From Actinocatenispora comari (GTDB taxonomy: Bacteria > Actinomycetota > Actinomycetes > Mycobacteriales > Micromonosporaceae): DNA of 64,000 nt. The stretch spans positions 63,025 through 127,024 of the forward strand of contig NZ_BOPO01000007.1 of assembly GCF_017312725.1 (NCBI RefSeq), written 5' to 3'. The notes under the pieces were generated by a model. The model had not been told where the DNA came from, did no database searches, and saw nothing but the letters and a program-made list of their open reading frames with translations. Positions 45,598 through 64,000 of this stretch are shown here, one piece after another. The translations under genes and the position numbers were made by a program. The stretch's first letter is position 1, and every line of letters begins with the position of its first letter.

Positions 45598-46662
45598 TCA
45601 GACGATGGCCCAGGTGTCGCCGGAGTAGAGCAGCGAGTCGAGCTCGTCGTCCAGGCTCTTCCCGGTACGGGCCGCGTCCAGCTGGCCGCGCACGATCTCG
45701 TCGTACGACGGGCGGGGCACGTCACGCAGCACGCCCATCGGCGTGTGCAGCAGGTTCTCGCCGGGCAGCCGGGACAGCGCGAACGCGTACGACGGGTCGG
45801 GGTCGTGCGCGTCGTGCACCACGATGTCGGCCGGGTCGACCTCGGCGGTCTTCGCCACCGCGAGGCCGAAGCCGCGGCGCACCACGCAGTGCGCCCCGTC
45901 CGGCCCGAACGTGATCGGCTCGCCGTGCTCGACCCGGACCACCGCCTCGTCCCGGGTCTCCGGGTTCTTCAGCACCTCGAAGGCGTCGTCGTTGAAGATC
46001 GGGCAGTTCTGGTAGATCTCGATGAACGCGCTGCCCTGGTGCTCGGCCGCCGCGGACAGCACCGAGGTGAGGTGCTTGCGGTCGGAGTCGAGGGTGCGGG
46101 CGACGAACGACGCCTCCGCGCCGAGCGCCAGCGACACCGGGTTGAACGGTGCGTCGGCCGAGCCGACCGGCGTCGACTTGGTGACCTTGCCCAGCTCCGA
46201 GGTCGGCGAGTACTGCCCCTTGGTCAGGCCGTAGATCCGGTTGTTGAACAGCAGGATCTTGATGTTGACGTTGCGCCGCAGGGCGTGGATCAGGTGGTTG
46301 CCGCCGATCGAGAGGGCGTCGCCGTCACCGGTGATCATCCACACCGACAGGTCGGGCCGGGTGGTGGCGAGGCCGCTCGCGATCGCCGGCGCCCGACCGT
46401 GGATCGAGTGCATCCCGTAGGTGTTCAGGTAGTACGGGAAGCGGGACGAGCAGCCGATGCCGGAGACCACGACGGTGTTCTCCTGCCGGATGCCCAGCGT
46501 CGGCAGGAAGCTCTGGAACGCGGCCAGGATCGCGTAGTCACCGCAGCCCGGGCACCAGCGCACCTCCTGGTCGCTCTTGAACTGCTTCATGGTCTGCTTG
46601 CCCTCGGCCTTGGGCACCAGGTCCAGGGCGCGGCGGCCGTTCGGGGACACGGGCTCAGACAT
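45598..46662 (-). CDS. korB: 2-oxoacid:ferredoxin oxidoreductase, beta subunit
   Basis: 354 aa thiamine-diphosphate subunit. RWCPGCGDYAIL near the N-terminus carries cluster/TPP-domain Cys residues, with a further Cys in GIGCSSRFPYYL. The TPP motif is GDGDALSIGGNHLIHALRRN...NNRIYGLTKGQYSPTS. This is the KorB (2-oxoglutarate ferredoxin oxidoreductase) form found in actinobacteria. Its start overlaps the korA stop by 8 nt. Cytoplasmic; decarboxylates 2-oxoglutarate to succinyl-CoA and reduces ferredoxin. Confidence 0.92.
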   Translation of the reverse strand: MSEPVSPNGRRALDLVPKAEGKQTMKQFKSDQEVRWCPGCGDYAILAAFQSFLPTLGIRQENTVVVSGIGCSSRFPYYLNTYGMHSIHGRAPAIASGLATTRPDLSVWMITGDGDALSIGGNHLIHALRRNVNIKILLFNNRIYGLTKGQYSPTSELGKVTKSTPVGSADAPFNPVSLALGAEASFVARTLDSDRKHLTSVLSAAAEHQGSAFIEIYQNCPIFNDDAFEVLKNPETRDEAVVRVEHGEPITFGPDGAHCVVRRGFGLAVAKTAEVDPADIVVHDAHDPDPSYAFALSRLPGENLLHTPMGVLRDVPRPSYDEIVRGQLDAARTGKSLDDELDSLLYSGDTWAIV

Positions 46663-48517
46663 TCTTCACGATCTCCTCAAGCGCCGACTCCAGCTCACCC
46701 GCGGTGAACGGCAGCCCGCGCACCTTGTTGTAGCCGATCACGTCGATCAGGAACCGGCCGCGCAGCAGCTGCGAGAGCTGGCCCAGGTTCATCTCCGGTA
46801 CGACGACCTTGTCGTAGCCGCGCAGCATCGCCTCGGTGTTGGCGGGCAACGGGTTCAGGTGCCGCAGGTGCGCCTGCGCCACGTGGTGACCGTTGTCCCG
46901 GAGGCGGCGCACCGCGGCGCCGATCGGCCCGTACGTGGAGCCCCAGCCGAGCACCAGCACCCGCGCCTCGCCGGACGGGTCGTCGGCGACCAGATCCGGG
47001 ATGTCGCGCGCGATCGCGTCGACCTTCGCCTGCCGCAGCCGGACCATCGTGTCGTGGTTGGCCGGGTCGTACGAGATGTTGCCGGTGCCGTCGGCCTTCT
47101 CGATGCCGCCGATCCGGTGCTCCAGGCCCGGGGTACCGGGGATCGCCCACGGGCGGGCCAGCGTCTCCGGATCCCGCAGGTACGGCCAGAACGCGGTGCT
47201 GCCGTCGGGGTTCTCGTGGTTGTGCGCGGTGGCGAAGTCGACGGTGATCTCGGGCAGCTCCGCCACCTTCGGCAGCCGCCACGGTTCCGACCCGTTCGCC
47301 AGGTAGCCGTCGGACAGCAGCAGCACCGGCACCCGGTAGGTGACCGCGATGCGGGCCGCCTCGATCGCCGCGTAGAAGCAGTCGGACGGGGAACTCGCCG
47401 CGATCACCGCCGCCGGCGACTCGCCGTGCCGCCCGTACAGCGCCATGTTCAGGTCGGCCTGCTCGGTCTTGGTCGGCATCCCGGTGGACGGGCCGGCGCG
47501 CTGGATGTCGCAGATCACCAGCGGCAGTTCCTGCATCACCGCGAGGCCGATCGTCTCGCCCTTGAGCGCGACGCCGGGGCCGGAGGTGGAGGTGACGCCG
47601 AGCGCCCCGCCGTACGAGGCGCCGAGCGCGGCGCCGACCGCGGCGATCTCGTCCTCGGCCTGGAACGTCAGCACCCCGAACTTCTTGTGCTTGCTCAGCT
47701 CGTGCAGCACGTCGGAGGCCGGCGTGATCGGGTACGCGCCGAGGAACAGCGGCAGGCCGGCCCGCACGCTGGCGGCGATCAGCCCGTACGCCAGGGCGGT
47801 GTTGCCGGTGATGTTGCGGTAGGTGCCGGCCGGCAGCTTCGCCGGCTTCACCTCGTACCGCACCGCGAAGTCCTCGGTGGTCTCGCCGTAGTTCCAGCCG
47901 GCCTTCAGCGCGGTGACGTTCGCCTCGACCAGCTCCGGCCGGTTCGCGAACTTCTTCCGCAGGAACGCCTCGGTGCCCTCGACCGACCGGTTGTACATCC
48001 AGGACAGCAGGCCCAGCGCGAACATGTTCTTGGACCGCTCGGCATCCTTCTTGGAGATGTCGAAGCTCTCCAGCGCCTTCACGGTGAGCGAGGTCAGCGG
48101 CACCTCGTGCACCGCGTACGAGTCGAGGGTGCCGTCCTCGAGCGGGTTGGCGTCGTAGCCGACCTTGGTCAGGTTGCGCTTGGTGAACTCGTCGGTGTTG
48201 ACGATGATGTCCGCGGCCCGGGGCACGTCGGCCAGGTTCGCCTTGAGCGCGGCCGGGTTCATCGCCACCAGCACGTTCGGCGCGTCGCCGGGGGTGAGGA
48301 TGTCGTAGTCGGCGAAATGCAGCTGGAAGCTGGACACCCCGGGCAGGGTGCCGGCGGGGGCGCGGATCTCGGCGGGGAAATTGGGCAACGTGGAGAGGTC
48401 GTTGCCGAGCTGCGCGGACTCGGCGGTGAACCGGTCCCCGGTGAGCTGCATTCCGTCGCCGGAGTCGCCGGCGAACCGGATGACCACCCGATCCAGTTGT
48501 CGGACCTGCTTGGCCAC
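46655..48517 (-). CDS. korA: 2-oxoacid:ferredoxin oxidoreductase, alpha subunit (gamma-alpha fusion)
   Basis: 620 aa. The N-terminal gamma domain (VIRFAGDSGDGMQLTGDRF) is fused to the pyrimidine-binding alpha domain (FLGAYPITPASDVLHEL, FQAEDEIAAVGAALGASYGG, TSTSGPGVALKGETIG) and ends with the transketolase-C-like domain. GTG 48517 follows an excellent GGAGGT. In Streptomyces, korAB likewise neighbour a partial second nuo cluster (from memory), as they do here, which suggests the two functions are linked through ferredoxin. Confidence 0.93.
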   Translation of the reverse strand: MAKQVRQLDRVVIRFAGDSGDGMQLTGDRFTAESAQLGNDLSTLPNFPAEIRAPAGTLPGVSSFQLHFADYDILTPGDAPNVLVAMNPAALKANLADVPRAADIIVNTDEFTKRNLTKVGYDANPLEDGTLDSYAVHEVPLTSLTVKALESFDISKKDAERSKNMFALGLLSWMYNRSVEGTEAFLRKKFANRPELVEANVTALKAGWNYGETTEDFAVRYEVKPAKLPAGTYRNITGNTALAYGLIAASVRAGLPLFLGAYPITPASDVLHELSKHKKFGVLTFQAEDEIAAVGAALGASYGGALGVTSTSGPGVALKGETIGLAVMQELPLVICDIQRAGPSTGMPTKTEQADLNMALYGRHGESPAAVIAASSPSDCFYAAIEAARIAVTYRVPVLLLSDGYLANGSEPWRLPKVAELPEITVDFATAHNHENPDGSTAFWPYLRDPETLARPWAIPGTPGLEHRIGGIEKADGTGNISYDPANHDTMVRLRQAKVDAIARDIPDLVADDPSGEARVLVLGWGSTYGPIGAAVRRLRDNGHHVAQAHLRHLNPLPANTEAMLRGYDKVVVPEMNLGQLSQLLRGRFLIDVIGYNKVRGLPFTAGELESALEEIVKNV

Positions 48518-53379: not shown

Positions 53380-53476
53380 CCCCCCGACGCGCTCCGGCCC
53401 GGCGCGGCTCGGGACTCCGCGGCCCGGCTGGGCGGGGGCGGACGTGCCTGCGAGACTGGGGCCGAGGGGGTGCGCG

Positions 53477-54079
53477 ATGACCGGACCTGTCGCGTTGCCG
53501 GAGCCGCGACCGCGGGAGCGCGGTGGGCTGCCGGCGGTGCTCGGCGCGCCGATCCGGTTCGTGCTCAACTGGGGCCGGCGCTACTCGCTCTGGGTCTTCA
53601 ACTTCGGCCTGGCCTGCTGCGCGATCGAGTTCATCGCCGCCTCGATGGGCCGGCACGACTTCATCCGGCTGGGCGTCATCCCGTTCGCGCACGGGCCGCG
53701 GCAGGCCGACCTGATGGTCGTCTCCGGCACCGTCACCGACAAGATGGCGCCGGCGATCAAGCGGCTGTACGACCAGATGGCCGAGCCGAAGTACGTCATC
53801 TCGTTCGGCGCGTGCAGCAACTCCGGCGGGCCGTACTGGGACTCCTACTCGGTCACCAAGGGCGTCGACCAGATCATCCCCGTCGACGTGTACGTGCCGG
53901 GCTGCCCGCCGCGGCCGGAGGCGCTGCTGCACGGCATCCTGCGGCTGCAGGACAAGATCGCCCGCGAGCAGGCCGGCCTCGGCGGGGTACGCCGGGACGA
54001 CCCGCTGGGCGCCGGTGCCCGCCGCGCCGGCGGTACCGACGCCGCGACGCTCACCGCCGCCCCGGTCCGGCCGCACTGA
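53477..54079 (+). CDS. nuoB2: Complex I-like subunit B, second copy
   Basis: 200 aa. All N2-cluster ligands are present: Cys47-Cys48 ([10 protein letters not shown]), Cys113 (GACSNSGG) and Cys143 (PGCPPRPE), so it should carry a functional [4Fe-4S] cluster. ATG 53477 follows GAGGGGGT. It is clearly diverged from the first nuoB, with no long C-terminal charged tail. Confidence 0.93.
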
Positions 54080-54117
54080 CCCCTCGGGCACCGGCCCGCT
54101 CGCACTACGATCCGGGC

Positions 54118-54834
54118 ATGGGTGGTGAAGGGGCGGAGACCGGCGCGATGCTGGCCGAACGGTTCGGCGCCGACGCGATCGGTACCGACTCCGGCGGCGG
54201 CACGTGGGCCCGGCCCACCGTGGACGTGCCGGTCGGCCGCTGGGTGGCCGCGCTGTCCACCGCCCGCGACGAGCTCGGCTACGACTTCTTCGACTGGCTG
54301 TCCGCGGTCGACGAGGGCGCCGACGGGTTCCGGATCGTCGCGCACCTCTGGTCGGTCGCCGACCGGCGCGGCCTGCTGCTGCGCACCCTGGTACCGGCCG
54401 GTGAACCGGTCCTGGACAGCGTCGTCGCGGTGTACCCGGGGGCCGGCTGGCACGAGCGGGAGACGCACGAGATGTTCGGCGTCGGGTTCGCGGGCAACCC
54501 CGACCTGGCGCCGCTGCTGCTGCCGGACGGGTTCGAGGGGCATCCGCTGCGCAAGGACTTCGTGCTGGCCGCGCGGGTGGTGAAGGCCTGGCCGGGCGCG
54601 AAGGAGCCGGGCGGCGAACACGGCAAGCGCGCGCCGATGCGGCCCCCGGGGGTACCCGCCCCGGGCGAGTGGCCGGCACCCCCGCCCGCCGCCGAACCCG
54701 ACCCGACCGTCGGCCCGGACGCGCCCGGCACGGTGCTCCCGCCGGAGCCGCGTGCGGCGCTCCCGCCGGAACCGCCGGCGCTCCCGCCGGAACCGCCGGA
54801 TGCGGCGACGCCGCCGAGCGGGGAGGGCGAGTAG
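54118..54834 (+). CDS. nuoC2: Complex I-like subunit C, second copy
   Basis: 238 aa. The 30-kDa domain ERETHEMFGVGFAGNPDLAPLLLPDGFEGHPLRKDF is intact. A C-terminal Pro/Glu-rich tail repeats LPPEPP. ATG 54118 is preceded by TACGAT at 54106, a leaderless-type -10, so it may also be transcribed on its own. nuoH2 starts on the next base after the stop; there is no nuoD2 between them. Confidence 0.88.
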   Translation: MGGEGAETGAMLAERFGADAIGTDSGGGTWARPTVDVPVGRWVAALSTARDELGYDFFDWLSAVDEGADGFRIVAHLWSVADRRGLLLRTLVPAGEPVLDSVVAVYPGAGWHERETHEMFGVGFAGNPDLAPLLLPDGFEGHPLRKDFVLAARVVKAWPGAKEPGGEHGKRAPMRPPGVPAPGEWPAPPPAAEPDPTVGPDAPGTVLPPEPRAALPPEPPALPPEPPDAATPPSGEGE

Positions 54835-55794
54835 ATGCCGCTGTGGGCCGAGCTGGTGCTGCGCCTGGCCGGCGTGGTCGTGGCGTTCCTGGTGCTGCCG
54901 CTGGTCGTCGGGCAGATCGAGCACAAGGTGATGGCGCACATGCAGGGCCGGCTCGGCCCCATGTACGCCGGCGGTTTCCACGGCTGGGCGCAGCTCGTCG
55001 CCGACGGCGTCAAGTTCGTGCAGAAGGAAGAGGTGGTACCGGCCGCGGCCGACCGGCCGGTGTTCCGGGCCGCGCCGATCGTCGCGCTGCTGCCGTACCT
55101 GGTGGTCGTGCTGGTGCTGCCGCTCGGACCGGGGCTGGTCGGCCAGGCGCTCGACATCGGGCTGTTCCTGGTGCTCGCGGTGGTCGGGGTCGGCGTGGTC
55201 GCGGTGCTGATGGCGGCCTGGTCCAGCGCGAACAAGTACAGCCTGCTCGGCGGGCTGCGGGCGGCGGCGCAACTGCTCGCGTACGAGCTGCCGTTCGTGC
55301 TGGCCGCGGCGAGCGTCGCGATGGCGGCGGGCACCCTGTCGTTGAGCGGGATCGTCGAGGCGTGGCAGCCGTGGTGGCTGGCCTGGCAGCTGCCGGCGAT
55401 GCTGGTGTTCCTCACCGCCGGGATCGCGGAGCTGCGCCGGCCGCCGTTCGACATGCCGATCGCCGACTCCGAGCTGGTCTTCGGGTACATGACCGAGTAC
55501 ACCGGGCTGCGGTTCGCGCTGTTCCTGCTCGCCGAGTACGTCGGGATCGTGGTGGTCGCGGCGCTGACCACGGTGCTGTTCCTGGGCGGCTGGCGCGGCC
55601 CGTTCGACGAGCAGCTGGGCTGGCTGTGGACGCTGGTCAAGGTGCTGATCGTGGCGTTCGTGATCATCTGGGTCCGGGTCACGTTCCCGCGGCTGCGGGC
55701 CGACCAGCTGCAGCGGTTCTGCTGGCTGGTGTTGGTGCCGGTCTCGCTGGCCCAGCTCGTCCTCACGGTCGCCGTCCGCCTCGCCCTGAACTGA
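54835..55794 (+). CDS. nuoH2: Complex I-like subunit H, second copy
   Basis: 319 aa, eight helices. IEHKVMAHMQGRLGPMYAGGFHGWAQLVADGVKF and the quinone-side loop AELRRPPFDMPIADSELVFGYMTEY match NuoH. It lacks the Gly/Ser C-terminal extension of the first copy and ends like the E. coli protein. Confidence 0.92.
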   Translation: MPLWAELVLRLAGVVVAFLVLPLVVGQIEHKVMAHMQGRLGPMYAGGFHGWAQLVADGVKFVQKEEVVPAAADRPVFRAAPIVALLPYLVVVLVLPLGPGLVGQALDIGLFLVLAVVGVGVVAVLMAAWSSANKYSLLGGLRAAAQLLAYELPFVLAAASVAMAAGTLSLSGIVEAWQPWWLAWQLPAMLVFLTAGIAELRRPPFDMPIADSELVFGYMTEYTGLRFALFLLAEYVGIVVVAALTTVLFLGGWRGPFDEQLGWLWTLVKVLIVAFVIIWVRVTFPRLRADQLQRFCWLVLVPVSLAQLVLTVAVRLALN

Positions 55795-55875
55795 GCGCCC
55801 ACCGGCCTCCACCGCACCCTGTACCGTCCGGCAGCCGACGCGCCGCCGCCCGACCGTGTGGTTCCGGTGCGGCAA

Positions 55876-55906
55876 AAGGGCCGCGACCGGGTCGGTCGCG
55901 GCCCTT
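55876..55906. terminator. Hairpin terminator after nuoH2
   Basis: A 13-bp stem AAGGGCCGCGACC with its complement and loop GGGTC; on the minus strand it is followed by TTTT. The rest of the 55795-56172 gap has an AT-richer patch at about 55985-56015 (TTGACG at 55988, TAGCTG at 56009, 15-bp spacing) and TAATCT at 56125, candidate promoter elements for the next gene. Confidence 0.65.
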
Positions 55907-56172
55907 CCTGCACCCCCCGCAGGACTCGGCCCGGTTGCGCGGACCGGAGTGCAGAGACCGTAGCACCCACCAGGGACGTAGCGAAACTTGACGTCAGCAA
56001 ATTGCACATAGCTGCACGGCCGCGCGTAAGCGGGAAGGGCAGCGGGGTTATGTCCCGATCGCGGGGTGATCGCACCTCTCTGTCATCGGCCGTACGGCCG
56101 GTACCTGGCTGGTTTCGACCTGGCTAATCTGCGCAATCGCGCCGTTCACGAACTATCCAGGAGATCCCCACC

Positions 56173-58413
56173 TTGACCGATCCCGAGCGCCCGCAGCCCC
56201 CTGCGGACGCGGCAGAGCCGTCTGCCCAGAACCCCACCGCCACCCCGCCCGTACCGGCCGCATCCCCCACGCCGCCGGCGGCCGACGCACCGCCGCCGGA
56301 AGCCGTGCCGGCACCGTCCGCCCCGAGTACGTCGCCCGCCGGGGACGTGCTGGCGGCGCCACCAGGGTCGCCCGCGCCGCTCGGTCCGCCGCAGCAGCTC
56401 GGTGAACCGGTACCGTCCTTTCCCGGCGCGCCGCCGATGCCGGTCGGATCGCCCGGACCATACGGCCCGGGCGTACCGGAGACCGCCCCGGGAGCCGCGT
56501 CCGGGATGCCGCCGGTGCCGGGAGCGACGTCCGGCATGCCGGCCGGGGCGGGGACGCCGGCCGGGGCGGGGAGGCCTTTCGGGCAGCCGGGTACGCCCGG
56601 AACGCCGGGGCCGGGCGGCGCGGCGCCGGGCATCATGATCGGGCTGCCCGGGGATCCGCAGACCACGAACTGGCCGTACGGGTCGATGCCGGTGCCGCCG
56701 GCACCGAAGCGCCGCCGGCGCTGGCCGTGGGTGGCCGGTGCGGTCGCGCTGGTCCTGGTACTCGGCGCGGTCGCCGTCCCGCTGTACCAGCGGCTCACCC
56801 GCCCCACCCCCACCGAGCAGGTGCAGTCCGCGCTCGCCGCGCTCGAACACGCGCCCGCGATCCGGCTCACCGGAGAGTCGATCACGGCGGAGGGCACGCC
56901 GCAGCGGATCAGCCTGTCGCTGGCCGGGAAGCGCGCGTACGGGCAGGCCCGCGGCTCCGCCGGCAGCGCCGACGTGCTGGTCCAGCACGGCGTCACCTAC
57001 CTGCGCGGCGACCGCGCCTGGTGGCGGACCGCCGACGAGACGACGGCGCTCTACCTGTCCGGGCACTGGACGGCGCAGACGTCGGGGCTGTCCGTCGACC
57101 CGACCGAGCTCACCCAGACCGGGCTGGCGAAGTACCTCGGCAAGGGGTTGCGCGCGAACGCCGACCCGGACGCGCACGCGAAGCCGGCCGGCGCCGGGTA
57201 CCCGAGCGTGCTCGGCTCCACCGCGGTCACGCCGTACCGGCTGCCGAACGGCTCGGTGGTCTTCGTGACCGCCGCCTCCCCGTACACGCTGGTCGGGATC
57301 GACCGCGCCCCCGGCGCGGCGGACGGTGGTTACCTCGACCTGACCGTCGCCACGGTCGGCAAGGACAGCTTCACCTCCCGGTTCGCGAAGCTCGCCGGCG
57401 GTGTGCACGGCGATCCGACGACGCCCGCGCACTACGTCTACCACGACAGGCCGAAGCAGGGCACCTGCGATCCGTACTCCTGCACCGAGTCGGTACGGCT
57501 GGTGGCGGACGGCGGCGACACCGGCCGCGCGGGGCACGTCGTGGGGTTCTACAGCTCCGACGCGGCCGGCAAGCACATCGTCGGCACCTGCTCGGCGAAG
57601 CTGCCGAAGATCCGGCCGAACCACTCCGCCAGGGTCTCCTGCACCACGCGGTCGCAGTCCTGGCAACGCTGGGTGGCGACCGGAGCAAGCACGCACTACT
57701 GGGTCTGGATCCAGCCGCTCGACCCGGGGTACGTCGGCGACCATCCGAACCAGGTCATCAACGTCTTCACCGCGGGCGTCGACGCCAGTGACATGGGGCC
57801 CGACGACATCGTCCTGCAGTCGGAGGACGCGCTCGCCGTGACCGACCACCTGATCGCCGCGGACGCCTGGAAGGGCCGGGCCGCGGTCGATGCGGTACAT
57901 GCGATCTGCGATGCCGGCGCGCTGGGTGTGCTGCAGCCGCTGATCATGGCGGGGCACGTGCAACTCGACCAGGACGGCTTCGGCGACTGGTTCAACGACG
58001 AACACGTGTCTGCGGCGGTCGCGGCGAAGGAGCATGCGGCGGCCGGCTCGACCAAGCTGGCGCTCGGGTCGTGGCAGGACCCGAACGACCGGACCGTCAA
58101 GGCCGACCTGATCGACATCTCCGCGAAGACCACCGTCACCACCGGCCGGGTCACCACGACCCGGCGGACCCGCGGCGACATCGAGCAGGCCGCCGACCGG
58201 GCCCGCGCGGGTGCGGTGCCCGACGGGTTCGGGCGGCAGCTGCGGATCGCGGCCGGACCGGGCAGCGCGCTGTACTGGTCGTCGGCCGCCGACGTCGCTG
58301 CCGGCCTGCGCGCGGCCGGGGTGACCTCGGCGATGCTGCACGGCATCCGGCGCATCCGGGTCGTCACCGGCTTCGGTACGGCCACCCTCACCCCGAACCA
58401 GCTGCGCAAGTAG
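56173..58413 (+). CDS. Large membrane-anchored protein of unrecognised family, paralogue 1
   Basis: 746 aa from a TTG start with AGGAG 9 nt upstream. Residues 1-180 are a Pro/Ala/Gly-rich presumably cytoplasmic region; KRRRRW marks the inner side of one helix (about 184-205). The rest should be extracytoplasmic. Its first part (about 212-380) has a pattern like LppX/LprG-type beta domains (AIRLTGESI...LVQHGVTYLRGDRAWWRTAD). The C-terminal part has a CX4C pair (CDPYSC), SSDAAGKHIVGTC and a further Cys-Thr-Thr, shared with the next gene, then a helical region of unknown type. I cannot assign a function. It lies within the nuo2 cluster. Confidence 0.75.
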   Translation: MTDPERPQPPADAAEPSAQNPTATPPVPAASPTPPAADAPPPEAVPAPSAPSTSPAGDVLAAPPGSPAPLGPPQQLGEPVPSFPGAPPMPVGSPGPYGPGVPETAPGAASGMPPVPGATSGMPAGAGTPAGAGRPFGQPGTPGTPGPGGAAPGIMIGLPGDPQTTNWPYGSMPVPPAPKRRRRWPWVAGAVALVLVLGAVAVPLYQRLTRPTPTEQVQSALAALEHAPAIRLTGESITAEGTPQRISLSLAGKRAYGQARGSAGSADVLVQHGVTYLRGDRAWWRTADETTALYLSGHWTAQTSGLSVDPTELTQTGLAKYLGKGLRANADPDAHAKPAGAGYPSVLGSTAVTPYRLPNGSVVFVTAASPYTLVGIDRAPGAADGGYLDLTVATVGKDSFTSRFAKLAGGVHGDPTTPAHYVYHDRPKQGTCDPYSCTESVRLVADGGDTGRAGHVVGFYSSDAAGKHIVGTCSAKLPKIRPNHSARVSCTTRSQSWQRWVATGASTHYWVWIQPLDPGYVGDHPNQVINVFTAGVDASDMGPDDIVLQSEDALAVTDHLIAADAWKGRAAVDAVHAICDAGALGVLQPLIMAGHVQLDQDGFGDWFNDEHVSAAVAAKEHAAAGSTKLALGSWQDPNDRTVKADLIDISAKTTVTTGRVTTTRRTRGDIEQAADRARAGAVPDGFGRQLRIAAGPGSALYWSSAADVAAGLRAAGVTSAMLHGIRRIRVVTGFGTATLTPNQLRK

Positions 58414-58422
58414 GCATCGCCC

Positions 58423-60420
58423 GTGCCTGAAGGAGAGCAGGACACTCCGAAGCCGGACGTTCCGGCGCCCGCGGCGGCGCCGGACCCGGACGTCTCGGTG
58501 CCCGCGGCGGCGCCGGGCCCGGACGTTCCGGTGCCCGCGATGGTGCCGGAGCCGCCGGATGCGCCCGCCGCGGCGTCGCCACCGCCGCAGGCCCCTTCCG
58601 GGGCGTCCCCACCGCCGCAGGCGCCTGCCATGATGGCGGTACCGTCGGCGGCGCCTGCCGTGGTGGCGCCACCACCGGTGCTTCCGGTCGTGGTGAAGCG
58701 GCGGCGGAGGTGGCCGCTGTTCGCCGTGATCGCGGGCGTCGTCGCGCTCGCGGTGATCGGTACCGCGGTCGGGATTCCGCTGTACCGCAAGCTGACCGCG
58801 CCGCCGCCGACCGAGCGGGTGCTCGCCGCGGCCGCGGCGCTCGCCACCGCGCCGGCGCTGCACCTCACCGGCAGCGTGTGGCGGGCCGAGAACGGCTCGT
58901 TCGAGACGTTCGACGCCCGGGTCGGTGCCGACACCACCACGGCGGGCACCATCTCGATCGGCGGCGGCAGGGCGGACTTCCTCGTCGGCCCGCGGCTGGT
59001 CCGGCTGCGGGGCGATCGACGCTCCCTGCTGGCCATCGAGCCGGACGTGGCCGAGTACGGGGTCGGCACGTGGCTGGAGCTGGAGCCCGCGACGCTGAAC
59101 GTGGCGTTCTCGGAGCTGACGCCGCGCAACGTGGCCAACCGGATGCGGGACGGGCTGCGGGCGAACGGCTCCGGCAAGTACGCCGCGGTACCGGCCGACG
59201 GGTTCCCGACCCGGTTGGGCCGTACCGCGGTCACCCCGTACCGGCTGCCCACCGGTCGCGTCGCCTTCGTCACCGCCGACGCCCCGTACCGGCTGGTCGG
59301 GTTCACCGGGAAGTTCGGCATCAGCGTCGAGGGCGAGCTGACCGCCGAGATCTCCGTACTGACCAGCAAGCGGTTCGCGACCGACTACGCCACGCAGGAG
59401 CGTGCGGCCGGCGAGGCGCCGACGCAGCCGGCCCACTACCTGCCCGATCCGAGCAGCGAGAAGCGGGGCTCGTGCGACAAGCGGTTCTGCGCGGAGTCGG
59501 CGATCGTCTCCGCCGACGGTGGGGACACCGCCCGGCCCGGCCACGTCGTCGGCCTGTTCAGCAGCGACGCGGCCGGCAAACACGTCGTCGGTACCTGCCA
59601 GGCGAAGCTGCCGACGTTGGCACCCAACGGATCCGGGCGGGCCTGGTGCACGACGACGTCGGCGAGCTGGCGGAAGTGGGCTGCGGACGGCAAGACCTTC
59701 TGGTTCCGACTGATCCCGCTGTCGCCGGGCTGGCAGGGCGACGACGTGCACACCGTGCTGCACCTGCTTGGCACCGGGGCGCTGAACGACGACGTGGTGA
59801 CCGGGTACCAGCTGAGCTCGACGGGCCCGGGTGAGTTCTTCGGTGTGATGGACTCGCTGGTCGGGCAGGGTTGGTCGGCTGCCGCTGCCTGGCAGGCGAC
59901 CACGAATCTCGCCGACTCCGGGGCGCTCGGGATCGCGGCGCCGATGCTGCGCGCGGGGACGTTGTCGGTCGATCCGAAGGCCGGCCCGGGCGCTCTGGAG
60001 GCCGGGAGCCTGCCGTTCTACCGGGAGGCGCGGCGGCGGTACGAGGCGCACGGCGGCAAGCTCGCCGTGGGCGGCTACACCGACCCGTCCGGCACGCACC
60101 ACACCGGCCACCTGTACGACGTGACGCGGCGGCGGGTGGTCACCACGGTGCCGCTGACCGCCGACTCGATGCGCGGGCTGCGGAGCCAGTGGCCGGACGC
60201 GGTGGAACGGTGCCGCAACGCCAACGCACCCGAGGGGTTCGGCCGGGATCTCGTCCTGGTGGCCACGCCGCGCAGTCCGCTCTACTGGCTGGGCGCCGAC
60301 GACGTGGCGCGCACGTTGCGTGCGGCGGGCGTCGCCGGCAAGGACCTCGCCGGCATCGCGGCCCTCACCGTGGTGACCCGGACCGGCGCGGTCGCGGTGC
60401 GCGCGTCCGACCTGGGCTGA
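58423..60420 (+). CDS. Large membrane-anchored protein of unrecognised family, paralogue 2
   Basis: 665 aa, 9 bp behind paralogue 1 and with the same plan: a shorter Pro-rich N-terminus (1-90), KRRRRW, one helix (about 97-119), an LppX-like beta region, then the conserved block with CDKRFC, ADGGDTARPGHVVG, SSDAAGKHVVGTC and WCTTT. Four Cys are conserved between the two, suggesting two disulfides outside the cell. Near the C-terminus it ends PLYWLGADDVARTLRAAGV, matching ALYWSSAADVAAGLRAAGV in paralogue 1. Function unknown; a pair working together is likely. Confidence 0.75.
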   Translation: MPEGEQDTPKPDVPAPAAAPDPDVSVPAAAPGPDVPVPAMVPEPPDAPAAASPPPQAPSGASPPPQAPAMMAVPSAAPAVVAPPPVLPVVVKRRRRWPLFAVIAGVVALAVIGTAVGIPLYRKLTAPPPTERVLAAAAALATAPALHLTGSVWRAENGSFETFDARVGADTTTAGTISIGGGRADFLVGPRLVRLRGDRRSLLAIEPDVAEYGVGTWLELEPATLNVAFSELTPRNVANRMRDGLRANGSGKYAAVPADGFPTRLGRTAVTPYRLPTGRVAFVTADAPYRLVGFTGKFGISVEGELTAEISVLTSKRFATDYATQERAAGEAPTQPAHYLPDPSSEKRGSCDKRFCAESAIVSADGGDTARPGHVVGLFSSDAAGKHVVGTCQAKLPTLAPNGSGRAWCTTTSASWRKWAADGKTFWFRLIPLSPGWQGDDVHTVLHLLGTGALNDDVVTGYQLSSTGPGEFFGVMDSLVGQGWSAAAAWQATTNLADSGALGIAAPMLRAGTLSVDPKAGPGALEAGSLPFYREARRRYEAHGGKLAVGGYTDPSGTHHTGHLYDVTRRRVVTTVPLTADSMRGLRSQWPDAVERCRNANAPEGFGRDLVLVATPRSPLYWLGADDVARTLRAAGVAGKDLAGIAALTVVTRTGAVAVRASDLG

Positions 60421-60424
60421 CCAG

Positions 60425-60462
60425 CTTCGGTGGGGAAGCGCCACGGTGCTTCCCCACCGAAG
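60425..60462. terminator. Bidirectional hairpin terminator
   Basis: A perfect 15-bp stem (CTTCGGTGGGGAAGC and complement, 8-nt loop) between the paralogue pair and the convergent aldo/keto reductase. Confidence 0.75.
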
Positions 60463-60468
60463 GCGGGG

Positions 60469-61455
60469 TCAGGAGTGGCCGGAGATGGGCTTGGGCCGGT
60501 ACGGCTCGGCCAGCGCGGCGAGCTCGTCGGCCGACAGCGCCAGCTCGGTGGCGGCGATCGCGTCGTCGAGGTGGTGCGGCTTGGTGGCGCCGACGATCGG
60601 CGCGGTGACGGCCGGCTGGTGCAGCAGCCAGGCGAGCGCCACCTGCGCCGCCGGTACCCCGTGCGCGTCGGCGACGTCCGCGACCCGGTCGGCGACGGCG
60701 AAGTCGGTCTCGTCGTAGGAGTAGAACCGCAGGTTGCCCGGGTCGGTACGGGCCCGGACGGTGTGCTGGCCGTCCCGGCCGCGGTTGCCGGCGAGGAATC
60801 CGCGAGCCAGCGGAGACCACGGGATCACCCCGACGCCCTGGTCGGCGCAGAACGGGATCATCTCCCGCTCCTCCTCGCGGTACACCAGGTTGTAGTGGTT
60901 CTGCATGGACACGAACCGGGTCCAGCCGTGCGCGTCCGCGGTGTACTGCGCCTTCGCGAACTGCCAGGCCCACATCGACGACGCCCCGATGTAGCGGGCC
61001 TTGCCGGCGCGCACCACGTCGTGCAGCGCCGCCATCGTCTCCTCGATCGGCGTCTCCGGGTCGAACCGGTGGATCTGGTACAGGTCGATGTAGTCGGTGC
61101 CCAGCCGGCGCAGCGAGGCGTCGATCGAGTCCATGACGTGCTTGCGGGACAGCCCCCGGTCGTACGGCCCGTCGCCCATCGGGTTGCACACCTTGGTGGC
61201 GAGCACGTAGTCCTCGCGGTGCTGGAAGAAGCGGCGCAGCAGCCGGCCGGTGATCTCCTCGCTGACCCCGACCGAGTAGACGTCGGCGGTGTCGTAGAAG
61301 GTGATGCCGGCCTCGGCGGCGCGGCGCACGAACGGCGCGGCGTCGGCCTCCGGCAGTACCCACTCGCGCCAGTTGACCGGATCGCCGTAGCTCATCATGC
61401 CCAGGCACAGCCGGGACACCTTCAGCCCGCTGCCACCCAGTCGTACGTACTCCAC
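60469..61455 (-). CDS. Aldo/keto reductase
   Basis: 328 aa TIM-barrel oxidoreductase using NADPH. The start [24 protein letters not shown] is usual for the family. The tetrad is visible as Asp and Tyr in [10 protein letters not shown], Lys in LATKV and His in LYQIHRFD; the C-terminal [14 protein letters not shown] binds NADP. GTG 61455 has AAGGA upstream. Substrate unknown. It interrupts the nuo2 cluster on the opposite strand. Confidence 0.92.
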
Positions 61456-61547
61456 GGTGCGTCCTTCCCCCACGTGCACTGACCGGGCCCAGCCTAGGGG
61501 GTGTCCGGGAGTCGGCCGGCGGCCCGGTGCGGTGGCAGGATGGGGGG

Positions 61548-62081
61548 ATGGCGGGATCGGTACCGGGCAAGGGGCTCGCGAAGGGGCTGGCCACCACGCT
61601 CAAGACGATGGTGCGCCCGGCCGGCACGGAGCAGTACCCGGACGTGCAGCCGGAGCTGCCGCCCCGCTCGCGCGGCGTGATCGCGCTGCTCGCGGAGAAC
61701 TGCACCTCGTGCATGCTGTGCGCGCGGGAGTGCCCCGACTGGTGCATCTACATCGACTCGCACAAGGAGACGGTGCAGGTGGAGGGGGCGGCGCGGGCCC
61801 GGCAGAAGAACGTGCTGGACCGGTTCGCGATCGACTTCTCGCTCTGCATGTACTGCGGGATCTGCGTCGAGGTGTGCCCGTTCGACGCGCTCTACTGGTC
61901 GCCCGAGTTCGAGTACGCCGAGTACGACATCCGCGACATGGTGCACGAGTCGGACCGGCTCGGCGAGTGGATGCCGACGGTCCCGGCGCCGCCCGCGCAC
62001 GATCCGAACGGCGAGCCGGCCAAGGAGGTGACCGCCGCCGAGCGCGGCGGCCGCGGCCGCGTCTCCCGCCCGCCCCGCTGA
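61548..62081 (+). CDS. nuoI2: Complex I-like subunit I, second copy
   Basis: 177 aa. Two [4Fe-4S] motifs are complete: Cys52/55/58/62 ([11 protein letters not shown]) and Cys100/103/106/110 ([11 protein letters not shown]). [11 protein letters not shown] and the PRSRGVIAL stretch are NuoI-like. It is separated from nuoH2 by two unrelated genes and a convergent reductase, so it must have its own promoter; CAGGAT 8 nt before the ATG could be a -10. Confidence 0.92.
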
Positions 62082-62106
62082 CCCGTCGCGGCGCGCCGGG
62101 CCGTGC

Positions 62107-62778
62107 TCACTTCAGCAGCAGGGCGGTGAGCTCGTCCGGGGCGGTGAGCATCGCGTCGTGACCGGTGCCGATCTCGTCGACCGGCCAGCCGAACTCGCGC
62201 GCCCAGGTGCCGAACGGCATCCCGTTGTCGGGTACGCAGACGATCGCCCGGCACGGCAGCGCCTCGACCCGGCCGGTCAGCACGGTCGGCTCGGCGAACG
62301 TCCGGCGCGGCTGCGGCACCAGCCGCGGCGTCAGCCAGGCGATCTGCTCCGGGTCGTCCACCCCGACCATCCGCGGCGGCGGCACCGCGATCAGGCCGTC
62401 CGCGGTGTTGCGGTCCGCCCAGCGCCGGAACGGCTCGGGTGCCAGGTCGTCCATGCTGGCACCGTCCGGGCCGGCCCACGCGTCGACCAGGATCAGGTGC
62501 CCGACCCGCTCCGGCACCCGGTCCGCCGCCTGCCGCACGACCAGGCCCGCGTAGCTGTGCCCGACCAGTACCACCTCGGTCAGGTCCTCGGTGTTCAGCA
62601 GCGTGACCACGTCGTCGGCGTGCGTACCGAGCCCGACGTCGGGTCGCGGCTCGCCGCCGTCCAGGCCGGTCAGGGTCGGGGTGAGGACCCGGTGGCCGGC
62701 GGCGCGCAGCCGGTCGGCGACGTACGTCCAGCACCAGCCGCCGTGCCAGGCTCCCGCCACGAGTACGAACGTGGACAT
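62107..62778 (-). CDS. Alpha/beta hydrolase (EstC/methyl esterase-like)
   Basis: 223 aa. FVLVAGAWHGGWCWTYVADRLRAAGHRVLTPTLTGL is the start seen in EstC and plant-type methylesterase-like hydrolases. The nucleophile is in GHSYAG and the C-terminal His in GTGHDAMLT. ATG 62778 follows AGAGGTGGG. It is convergent with nuoI2 and divergent from nuoJ2. Substrate unknown. Confidence 0.85.
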   Translation of the reverse strand: MSTFVLVAGAWHGGWCWTYVADRLRAAGHRVLTPTLTGLDGGEPRPDVGLGTHADDVVTLLNTEDLTEVVLVGHSYAGLVVRQAADRVPERVGHLILVDAWAGPDGASMDDLAPEPFRRWADRNTADGLIAVPPPRMVGVDDPEQIAWLTPRLVPQPRRTFAEPTVLTGRVEALPCRAIVCVPDNGMPFGTWAREFGWPVDEIGTGHDAMLTAPDELTALLLK

Positions 62779-62900
62779 CGACCCACCTCTCGGTTCGACA
62801 GTCATCGAATCATACTCGCGGGACGTGAACATGGGTCGCCTGGTTGTCGCGCCACGCGGGGCGACACGGCAGGATGGATCACCATGGGCGGGTGGGAACC

Positions 62901-63512
62901 GTGACGGTCGCGGACGTACTGCTGGTGGCGCTCGGCGTGGTGACGCTGGGCGCCGCCATGCTGGTGGTCACCAGCCGGCACCTGGTGCGCGCCGGGTTGT
63001 GGCTGGTCGTCGCGCTCGGCGGGGTCGCCGGCTGCTACCTGGTGCTCACCGCCGAACTGGTCGCCTGGGTCCAGGTGCTGCTCTACGTCGGCGCCGTGGT
63101 GGTGCTGCTGCTGTTCGCGGTGATGCTGACCCGGGCACCGATCGGGCCCAGCCCGCAGCTCGACCGGCCCCGGGTGCCCGCCGCGCTGGTCGGCGGCGGC
63201 GCCGGTGTCGGGCTCGCCGCGCTGCTGGTCGACGCGTACCGGTGGAGTCACGTCGAGCAGCCGCCGCCCGGCACGGCGGAGCGGATCGGTGCCGCGGTGT
63301 TCCGGCAGTGGGTGCTGCCGTTCGAGGTGGTGTCGGTGCTGCTGCTGGCCGCGCTGGTCGGCGCGATCGTGCTGTCCACGCGCGCCGGCGACCGGTCGGC
63401 GGGGGCGCAGCCGCAGGGCGACCGGCCGGTGCGGACCCGCCCGCCGCTGGACCGGGCCCCGGACGACGGCGACCGGGTGTCCGACGAGCCGCGCGCCGGG
63501 CGGGGCCGCTGA
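62901..63512 (+). CDS. nuoJ2: Complex I-like subunit J, second copy
   Basis: 203 aa, five helices plus a hydrophilic tail. AELVAWVQVLLYVGAVVVLLLFAVMLT is the conserved helix 3 region of NuoJ. I chose GTG 62901; GTG 62892 is also in frame. A short upstream ORF (62884-62904) overlaps this start. The stop shares bases with the nuoK2 ATG (TGATG). Confidence 0.88.
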   Translation: MTVADVLLVALGVVTLGAAMLVVTSRHLVRAGLWLVVALGGVAGCYLVLTAELVAWVQVLLYVGAVVVLLLFAVMLTRAPIGPSPQLDRPRVPAALVGGGAGVGLAALLVDAYRWSHVEQPPPGTAERIGAAVFRQWVLPFEVVSVLLLAALVGAIVLSTRAGDRSAGAQPQGDRPVRTRPPLDRAPDDGDRVSDEPRAGRGR

Positions 63513-63940
63513 TGCATCCGGTGATCCCGTACCTGATCGCGGCGCTGCTGTTCGGCGTCGGCTGCTACGGCGTGCTGGTGCGGCGCAACGCGGTGCTGCT
63601 GCTGATGTCGCTGGAGCTGATGCTCAACGCGGTCAACCTGATCCTGGTGACCGCCGACACCAGCATCGTCGGCGTCCCCCGGTCCGGCCAGGTGTTCGCG
63701 CTGTTCGTGATCGTGCTGGCCACCGCCGAGGTGGGCGTCGGCCTCGCCGTGGTGCTGCGGTTCTTCCGGCTGCGCGGCAGCGTCGACACCGACCTGCTCG
63801 ACACCCGCCGCGCCGGCGACGGCGCCGGCGGCGCGGTGCGCGCCGAGGACACCGCCGGCGGCACCGCCGCCGGCCCGGAGACCGCGGCCGTGACCGCGGT
63901 GCAGGCGGACACCGACGGCGGTACCGGGGAGGTGCGGTGA
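63512..63940 (+). CDS. nuoK2: Complex I-like subunit K, second copy
   Basis: 142 aa. The three-helix core has both membrane Glu residues (MSLELMLNAVNL and LATAEVGVGLAVVL). A 45-residue Ala/Gly/Thr tail makes it about 40% longer than the first NuoK. It is coupled to nuoJ2 and to nuoL2 by overlapping stop/start codons. Confidence 0.92.
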   Translation: MHPVIPYLIAALLFGVGCYGVLVRRNAVLLLMSLELMLNAVNLILVTADTSIVGVPRSGQVFALFVIVLATAEVGVGLAVVLRFFRLRGSVDTDLLDTRRAGDGAGGAVRAEDTAGGTAAGPETAAVTAVQADTDGGTGEVR

Positions 63941-64000
63941 TGCTGTCCACGGCGCTGGCGATCCTGCTGCCCGCGGTGCCGGGTGCGGCCGGCCTGGCCG
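63940..64000 (+). CDS. nuoL2: Complex I-like subunit L, second copy (5' end only)
   Basis: ATG 63940 overlaps the nuoK2 stop (TGATG). The 20 visible residues (MLSTALAILLPAVPGAAGLA) are hydrophobic and run off the window. Identity as NuoL rests on position after nuoK2. Confidence 0.6.
   Translation, partial: MLSTALAILLPAVPGAAGLA

Follow-up and report, generated by a model that had tools for sequence, protein, structure and literature searches.

In Actinocatenispora comari, two adjacent genes, designated here P1 and P2, lie between nuoH2 and nuoI2 of a second nuo cluster, within a 64,000-nucleotide stretch of contig NZ_BOPO01000007.1 (positions 63,025 to 127,024; hereafter the window, whose own numbering is used for both genes). 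In both proteins an LprG-like and an Ig-like domain are predicted to precede a C-terminal one that likely has a PD-(D/E)XK fold without its [EQ]xK motif, and they are tentatively read as non-catalytic binders tethered to the cell envelope and not as parts of complex I, a reading whose probability falls somewhat short of one half.

A sequence-only reading of this region had described tandem intact paralogues, 9 bp apart between nuoH2 and nuoI2, each with a Pro-rich N-terminus, the motif KRRRRW, one helix and a block containing cysteines. All of these features are found in the sequence: both open reading frames are intact, the two proteins are 39% identical and encoded in the same frame, P1 is preceded by a ribosome-binding-like AGGAG, and a single hydrophobic segment follows KRRRRW. 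The P1 tail is placed inside the cell because positive residues precede the hydrophobic segment, which lies at residue 186 in P1 and residue 100 in P2, and the first cysteine of the protein is residue 432 in P1 and 351 in P2; four cysteines are invariant. The LprG/LppX-like region seen in the same reading was borne out by the predicted structure of P1, which gave a strong fold match to LprG, the only strong match obtained. Matches to RseB and MucB span the first P1 domain only (model residues 37-239), and those proteins sit beside sigma/anti-sigma genes, whereas none occurs among the immediate neighbours of P1 and P2, which are nuo genes, an aldo/keto reductase and an alpha/beta hydrolase.

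The region noted earlier simply as a long C-terminal extension is indeed present, and it turns out to be a separate domain, likely of PD-(D/E)XK fold and without the catalytic motif. In the P1 model its core (57997-58410) is predicted to run in the order alpha-beta-beta-beta-alpha-beta, and 30 of 50 structural matches fall within one superfamily; a PD-(D/E)XK (CdiA-CT-like), toxin-nuclease-like fold is likely on the model, the match itself being weak. Across the nine family sequences compared, no [DEQ]xK occurs in residues 120-142 and no lysine is invariant, the polar residues conserved in all nine being Asp 124 and Arg 189; in P2 a His replaces the first Asp of the motif. The P1 domain is under purifying selection (dN/dS 0.24 against the Actinocatenispora genome G002). 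The last copy is followed by no immunity-like gene; what comes next, in all four genomes, is an aldo/keto reductase gene in convergent orientation.

On the favoured reading, the protein would enter the membrane with its tail inside and its domains outside. By analogy with LprG, the cavity of the first domain may hold a membrane or envelope lipid, or a lipoprotein, for docking or sensing, the Ig-like domain would act as a disulfide-braced spacer, and the C-terminal domain, rather than cleave nucleic acid, would bind an extracellular partner: an incoming toxin, the immunity protein of such a toxin, or a ligand in the envelope. The Pro-rich tail, predicted to be cytoplasmic, could contact partners there. 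Such proteins may represent a disarmed or never-armed branch of a surface-anchored layout, descended from surface-displayed toxins, which elsewhere in the order appears to carry a nuclease-like tail with an immunity-like gene downstream.

In agreement with the sequence-only reading, which recognized no named family, no full-length match to a well-described family was obtained. Pfam gave no family for P1 or P2 at E 1 and none for the 13 family members at E 5, neither protein reaches the cut-off of LppX_LprAFG (PF07161), and a PF07161 search of the genome returned two rows below the cut-off and none above it. Searches of Pfam, NCBIfam, PADLOC and PDB sequences with single proteins and alignments likewise yielded no family, BFVD gave no match at E 0.001, and PHROGs, queried with the C-terminal pieces of P1, P2 and the related protein L076 (see below) and with the 215-aa open reading frame next to L076, returned two rows only (E 0.4-0.5). 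Two NCBIfam models were rejected as sub-threshold, 'antisigma' (rows for 6 of 12 family members, the best at E 5e-6; P1 scores 20 bits against a cut-off of 100) and 'Rv0361_Cterm' (6 of 12 members, best E 0.011); their P1 rows cover construct residues 4-58 and 7-48, respectively, which correspond to the membrane segment plus a short stretch directly after it. Two pilin rows in the PDB search (E 0.09 and 0.21; profile positions 42-124 and 42-81) were also set aside. Titles and abstracts retrieved from the open-access papers searched contained no description of this arrangement of LprG-like domain, Ig-like domain and tail.

Full-length relatives have so far come from a single genus. At E 0.001, two protein searches, each scoring only the roughly 8,000 candidates that share most words, retrieved 8 and 10 proteins, P1 and P2 themselves counted, and the named matches all come from Actinocatenispora (A. 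sera, A. thailandica, an Actinocatenispora metagenome bin and A. rupis); searching once more with an alignment as query brought no others. Matches occur in 4 of 61 relative genomes and 1 of 56 genera. Between nuoH2 and the aldo/keto reductase that adjoins nuoI2 there are two copies in the window, two in G002, three in the Actinocatenispora genome G003 and one in A. rupis, which has an additional divergent copy (31% identical) on another contig, adjoining genes that by eye resemble sugar-transport and secreted-enzyme genes. P1 and P2 form separate, well-supported clades in a tree, which implies that the duplication predates the split of the three pair-bearing species; the positions of the third G003 copy and of the off-site A. 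rupis copy are unsure because of their long branches. The site also holds two other genes: in G003 an IS110-type transposase (L017 18337-19404), which separates nuoH2 from the third copy, and in A. rupis a glucosaminidase-domain gene (L007 7473-9056), located between nuoH2 and the one copy present there.

When 197 genomes of the class were searched with a profile, 32 gave matches, own genome included (E 0.01). Beyond the two own genes, no listed match passes position 273 of the 580 profile positions, and hence what this search detects elsewhere is limited to the membrane segment, the LprG-like part and, at most, the beginning of the next part. Among 17 of the matched loci that were read, seven encode lipoproteins with LprG-like and Ig-like parts (L070-L075, L078), seven encode lipoprotein-like proteins with the LprG-like part only (L077, L081, L083-L086, L088), and one (L087) was discarded as, by eye, an unrelated LytR-type protein; the other two are the kinase L082 and L076, both described below. 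The lipoproteins of the first kind share both parts and the four-Cys pattern with P1 and P2, a likeness based on reading and alignment, with a homology test on L070 only; they differ in their lipobox-like N-terminus and in having neither a Pro-rich tail nor a C-terminal domain. The A. comari genome itself encodes a 393-aa protein of this lipoprotein-like kind, again without the C-terminal domain (L080 3783-4964, G000:C101), possibly the founder form of the P1/P2 family. At another locus (L082 1820-3640, G228:C1) a Ser/Thr kinase (kinase domain E 1.9e-38) carries an LprG-like region behind a hydrophobic segment (profile match E 6.6e-7) and is possibly a lipid-sensing receptor kinase.

A counterpart in layout is L076, from the same order (L079 6641-10416, G189:C49), a protein of 978 aa from its second likely start. 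Like P1 and P2, it has a Pro-rich N-terminal tail (344 aa, 33% Pro) followed by a cluster of arginines and a single hydrophobic segment; behind these come an LprG-like region (hhalign, 96.6%), a block with four Cys and a C-terminal tail. It differs in that this last part reads YDIDV...FAYQAKEV, i.e. D-x-D and QxK, and in that the next gene on the same strand, a 215-aa open reading frame with no Pfam match above cut-off, overlaps it by ATGA; read by eye, the two resemble a toxin and its immunity protein, with the LprG-like part as the toxin's anchor. The tails are not significantly alignable, and since the C-terminal profile of P1 and P2 gives P 0.42 against the L076 tail in hhalign, homology of the tails is not claimed. 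A tblastn search of 72,556 plasmids with L076 residues 399-978 gave no match. The LprG-Ig combination is seen without a tail (7 loci), with the P1/P2 tail and with a different one (L076). Like the Tox-REase clades and CdiA-CT, P1 and P2 have this domain at the C-terminus behind a surface anchor, and they likely share its fold, but their D-[EQ]xK motif is incomplete, [EQ]xK being missing, and no immunity-like gene adjoins them.

LprG-type domains are known as lipid carriers of the mycobacterial envelope. A less probable but substantial alternative is that the LprG-like domain is the working part of P1 and P2, which would handle or sense envelope lipids or lipoproteins, and that the C-terminal domain is an alpha/beta extension peculiar to the genus and unrelated to nucleases and toxins. 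The LprG fold being the sole strong match speaks for it, as does the weakness of the C-terminal structural match, and the L082 kinase indicates that the module is used as the ectodomain of a likely receptor. Against it stand the strand and helix order of the C-terminal model, the concentration of its matches in a single superfamily and the same layout in L076 with a canonical-looking motif. In the P1 model the domain shares its predicted fold with the LppX_LprAFG proteins LprG, LprF and LppX; these are anchored by a lipid on the lipobox Cys, whereas P1 and P2 have a predicted transmembrane helix and no N-terminal lipobox Cys, lie below Pfam detection and carry an Ig-like and a further domain behind. 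LprG is reported to bind triacylglyceride (PMC4709180). That the pair are instead active surface toxins whose C-terminal domain cuts nucleic acid, or something else, through other residues is very improbable: the invariance of Asp 124 and Arg 189 in all nine sequences and the purifying selection on the domain in the P1 pair would fit, but both the motif and any invariant lysine are missing throughout, and a convergent gene occupies the place of an immunity gene.

Slightly less probable still is that P1 and P2 assist the second complex I-like enzyme as accessory factors, one of the options offered by the sequence-only reading. In its favour, all four Actinocatenispora genomes have kept copies between nuoH2 and nuoI2 even though these have diverged to about 40% identity, but the junction itself argues otherwise. 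nuoH2 is found in 58 of 61 family genomes at E 1e-60, and the survey took the best 30 of these 58 loci, three from Actinocatenispora and 27 from others (27 of 55 further genomes), slot size being measured from where the nuoH2 alignment ends to where that of nuoI2 starts. In the 27 others this slot is at most 150 bp in nine and 647 to 5110 bp in 18 (L026-L067; the window counterpart is 55794-61527), filled by eye with Uma2-like, SnoaL-like, MerR-like, protease-like, regulator-like and other genes, and P1/P2 were found at none of the 27 (E 0.001, without composition adjustment). BLAST composition adjustment had hidden an orthologue, and the junction search was therefore repeated without it, which recovered all known copies in four control loci, whereas the remaining 40 yielded no match at E 0.001. 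What occupies the junction varies across the family, and no co-occurrence of the pair with nuo2 was seen outside the genus, either at the 27 junctions or elsewhere in the 61 genomes. The strong hairpins flanking the pair, the additional copy elsewhere in A. rupis and the fast evolution of the pair, with P1 and P2 about 84% identical between A. comari (G000) and G002 against 97-98% for nuoH2, nuoI2, the aldo/keto reductase and korA, likewise count against a role in the enzyme.

Features of the P1/P2 locus in window coordinates.
Feature	Coordinates	Strand	Details
P1 coding sequence	56173..58413	+	746 aa, TTG start; open frame, homologues
P1 Pro/Ala-rich tail	56173..56727	+	30% Pro; predicted cytoplasmic; ends in KRRRRW
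P1 single hydrophobic (transmembrane) segment	56728..56784	+	hydropathy window; helix 11-34 of model
P1 LprG/LppX-like domain	56800..57417	+	model residues 35-240
P1 Ig-like domain	57430..57738	+	four invariant Cys; model residues 245-347
P1 C-terminal domain	57745..58410	+	helices, then core; models, fold match, motif check
P2 coding sequence	58423..60420	+	665 aa, GTG start; P1 paralogue
P2 single hydrophobic (transmembrane) segment	58720..58776	+	
P2 LprG/LppX-like domain	58789..59412	+	aligned to P1
P2 Ig-like domain	59413..59745	+	aligned to P1; Cys positions
P2 C-terminal domain	59752..60417	+	aligned to P1
Hairpin between nuoH2 and P1	55876..55906	+	14-bp perfect stem, z -5.1; terminator-like, without T run
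Hairpin between P2 and convergent aldo/keto reductase	60425..60462		15-bp perfect stem, z -6.1

The hairpins were located by reading and folding; a pattern scan of 53400-64000 returned no sigma-70 promoters and no T-run terminators. A hairpin of 30 or 31 nucleotides and near-identical sequence precedes P1 in all three P1-bearing genomes. In G003 it lies not behind nuoH2 but in the gap that separates the third copy from P1, and A. rupis has no significant hairpin after nuoH2, which indicates that this hairpin goes with P1. Another, of differing sequence, separates the last copy from the aldo/keto reductase in 3 of 4 Actinocatenispora genomes, G002 having none there; in the window it is likely a bidirectional terminator. 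As no hairpin that was read carries a T run, the role of terminator is a presumed one.

Up to the contig end, which is also the window end, the second nuo cluster shows nuoA2, B2, C2, H2, I2, J2 and K2, without nuoD-G between nuoC2 and nuoH2. A partial second nuo operon has already been described from marine actinomycetes, in which a hypothetical protein separates nuoA from nuoH (PMC6676996). Close to the cluster lies a korA/korB-like 2-oxoacid:ferredoxin oxidoreductase pair (window 45598-48517), and ferredoxin could supply the complex I-like enzyme.

A more far-reaching and rather unlikely proposal is that actinomycetes possess an undescribed class of membrane-tethered polymorphic toxins, built from an LprG-like domain that docks on lipid, an Ig-like stalk and a swappable C-terminal toxin, of which L076 would be an armed member and the Actinocatenispora pair a disarmed decoy or self-recognition receptor diversifying in the nuo2 cargo slot. 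The variability of the nuoH2-nuoI2 slot is a caution against assigning genes to complex I by position, and, if the envelope-binder reading of P1 and P2 is true, a membrane-proximal LprG-type module joined to a tail of toxin-like shape would connect the handling of lipids with contact-dependent conflict in filamentous Gram-positive bacteria.
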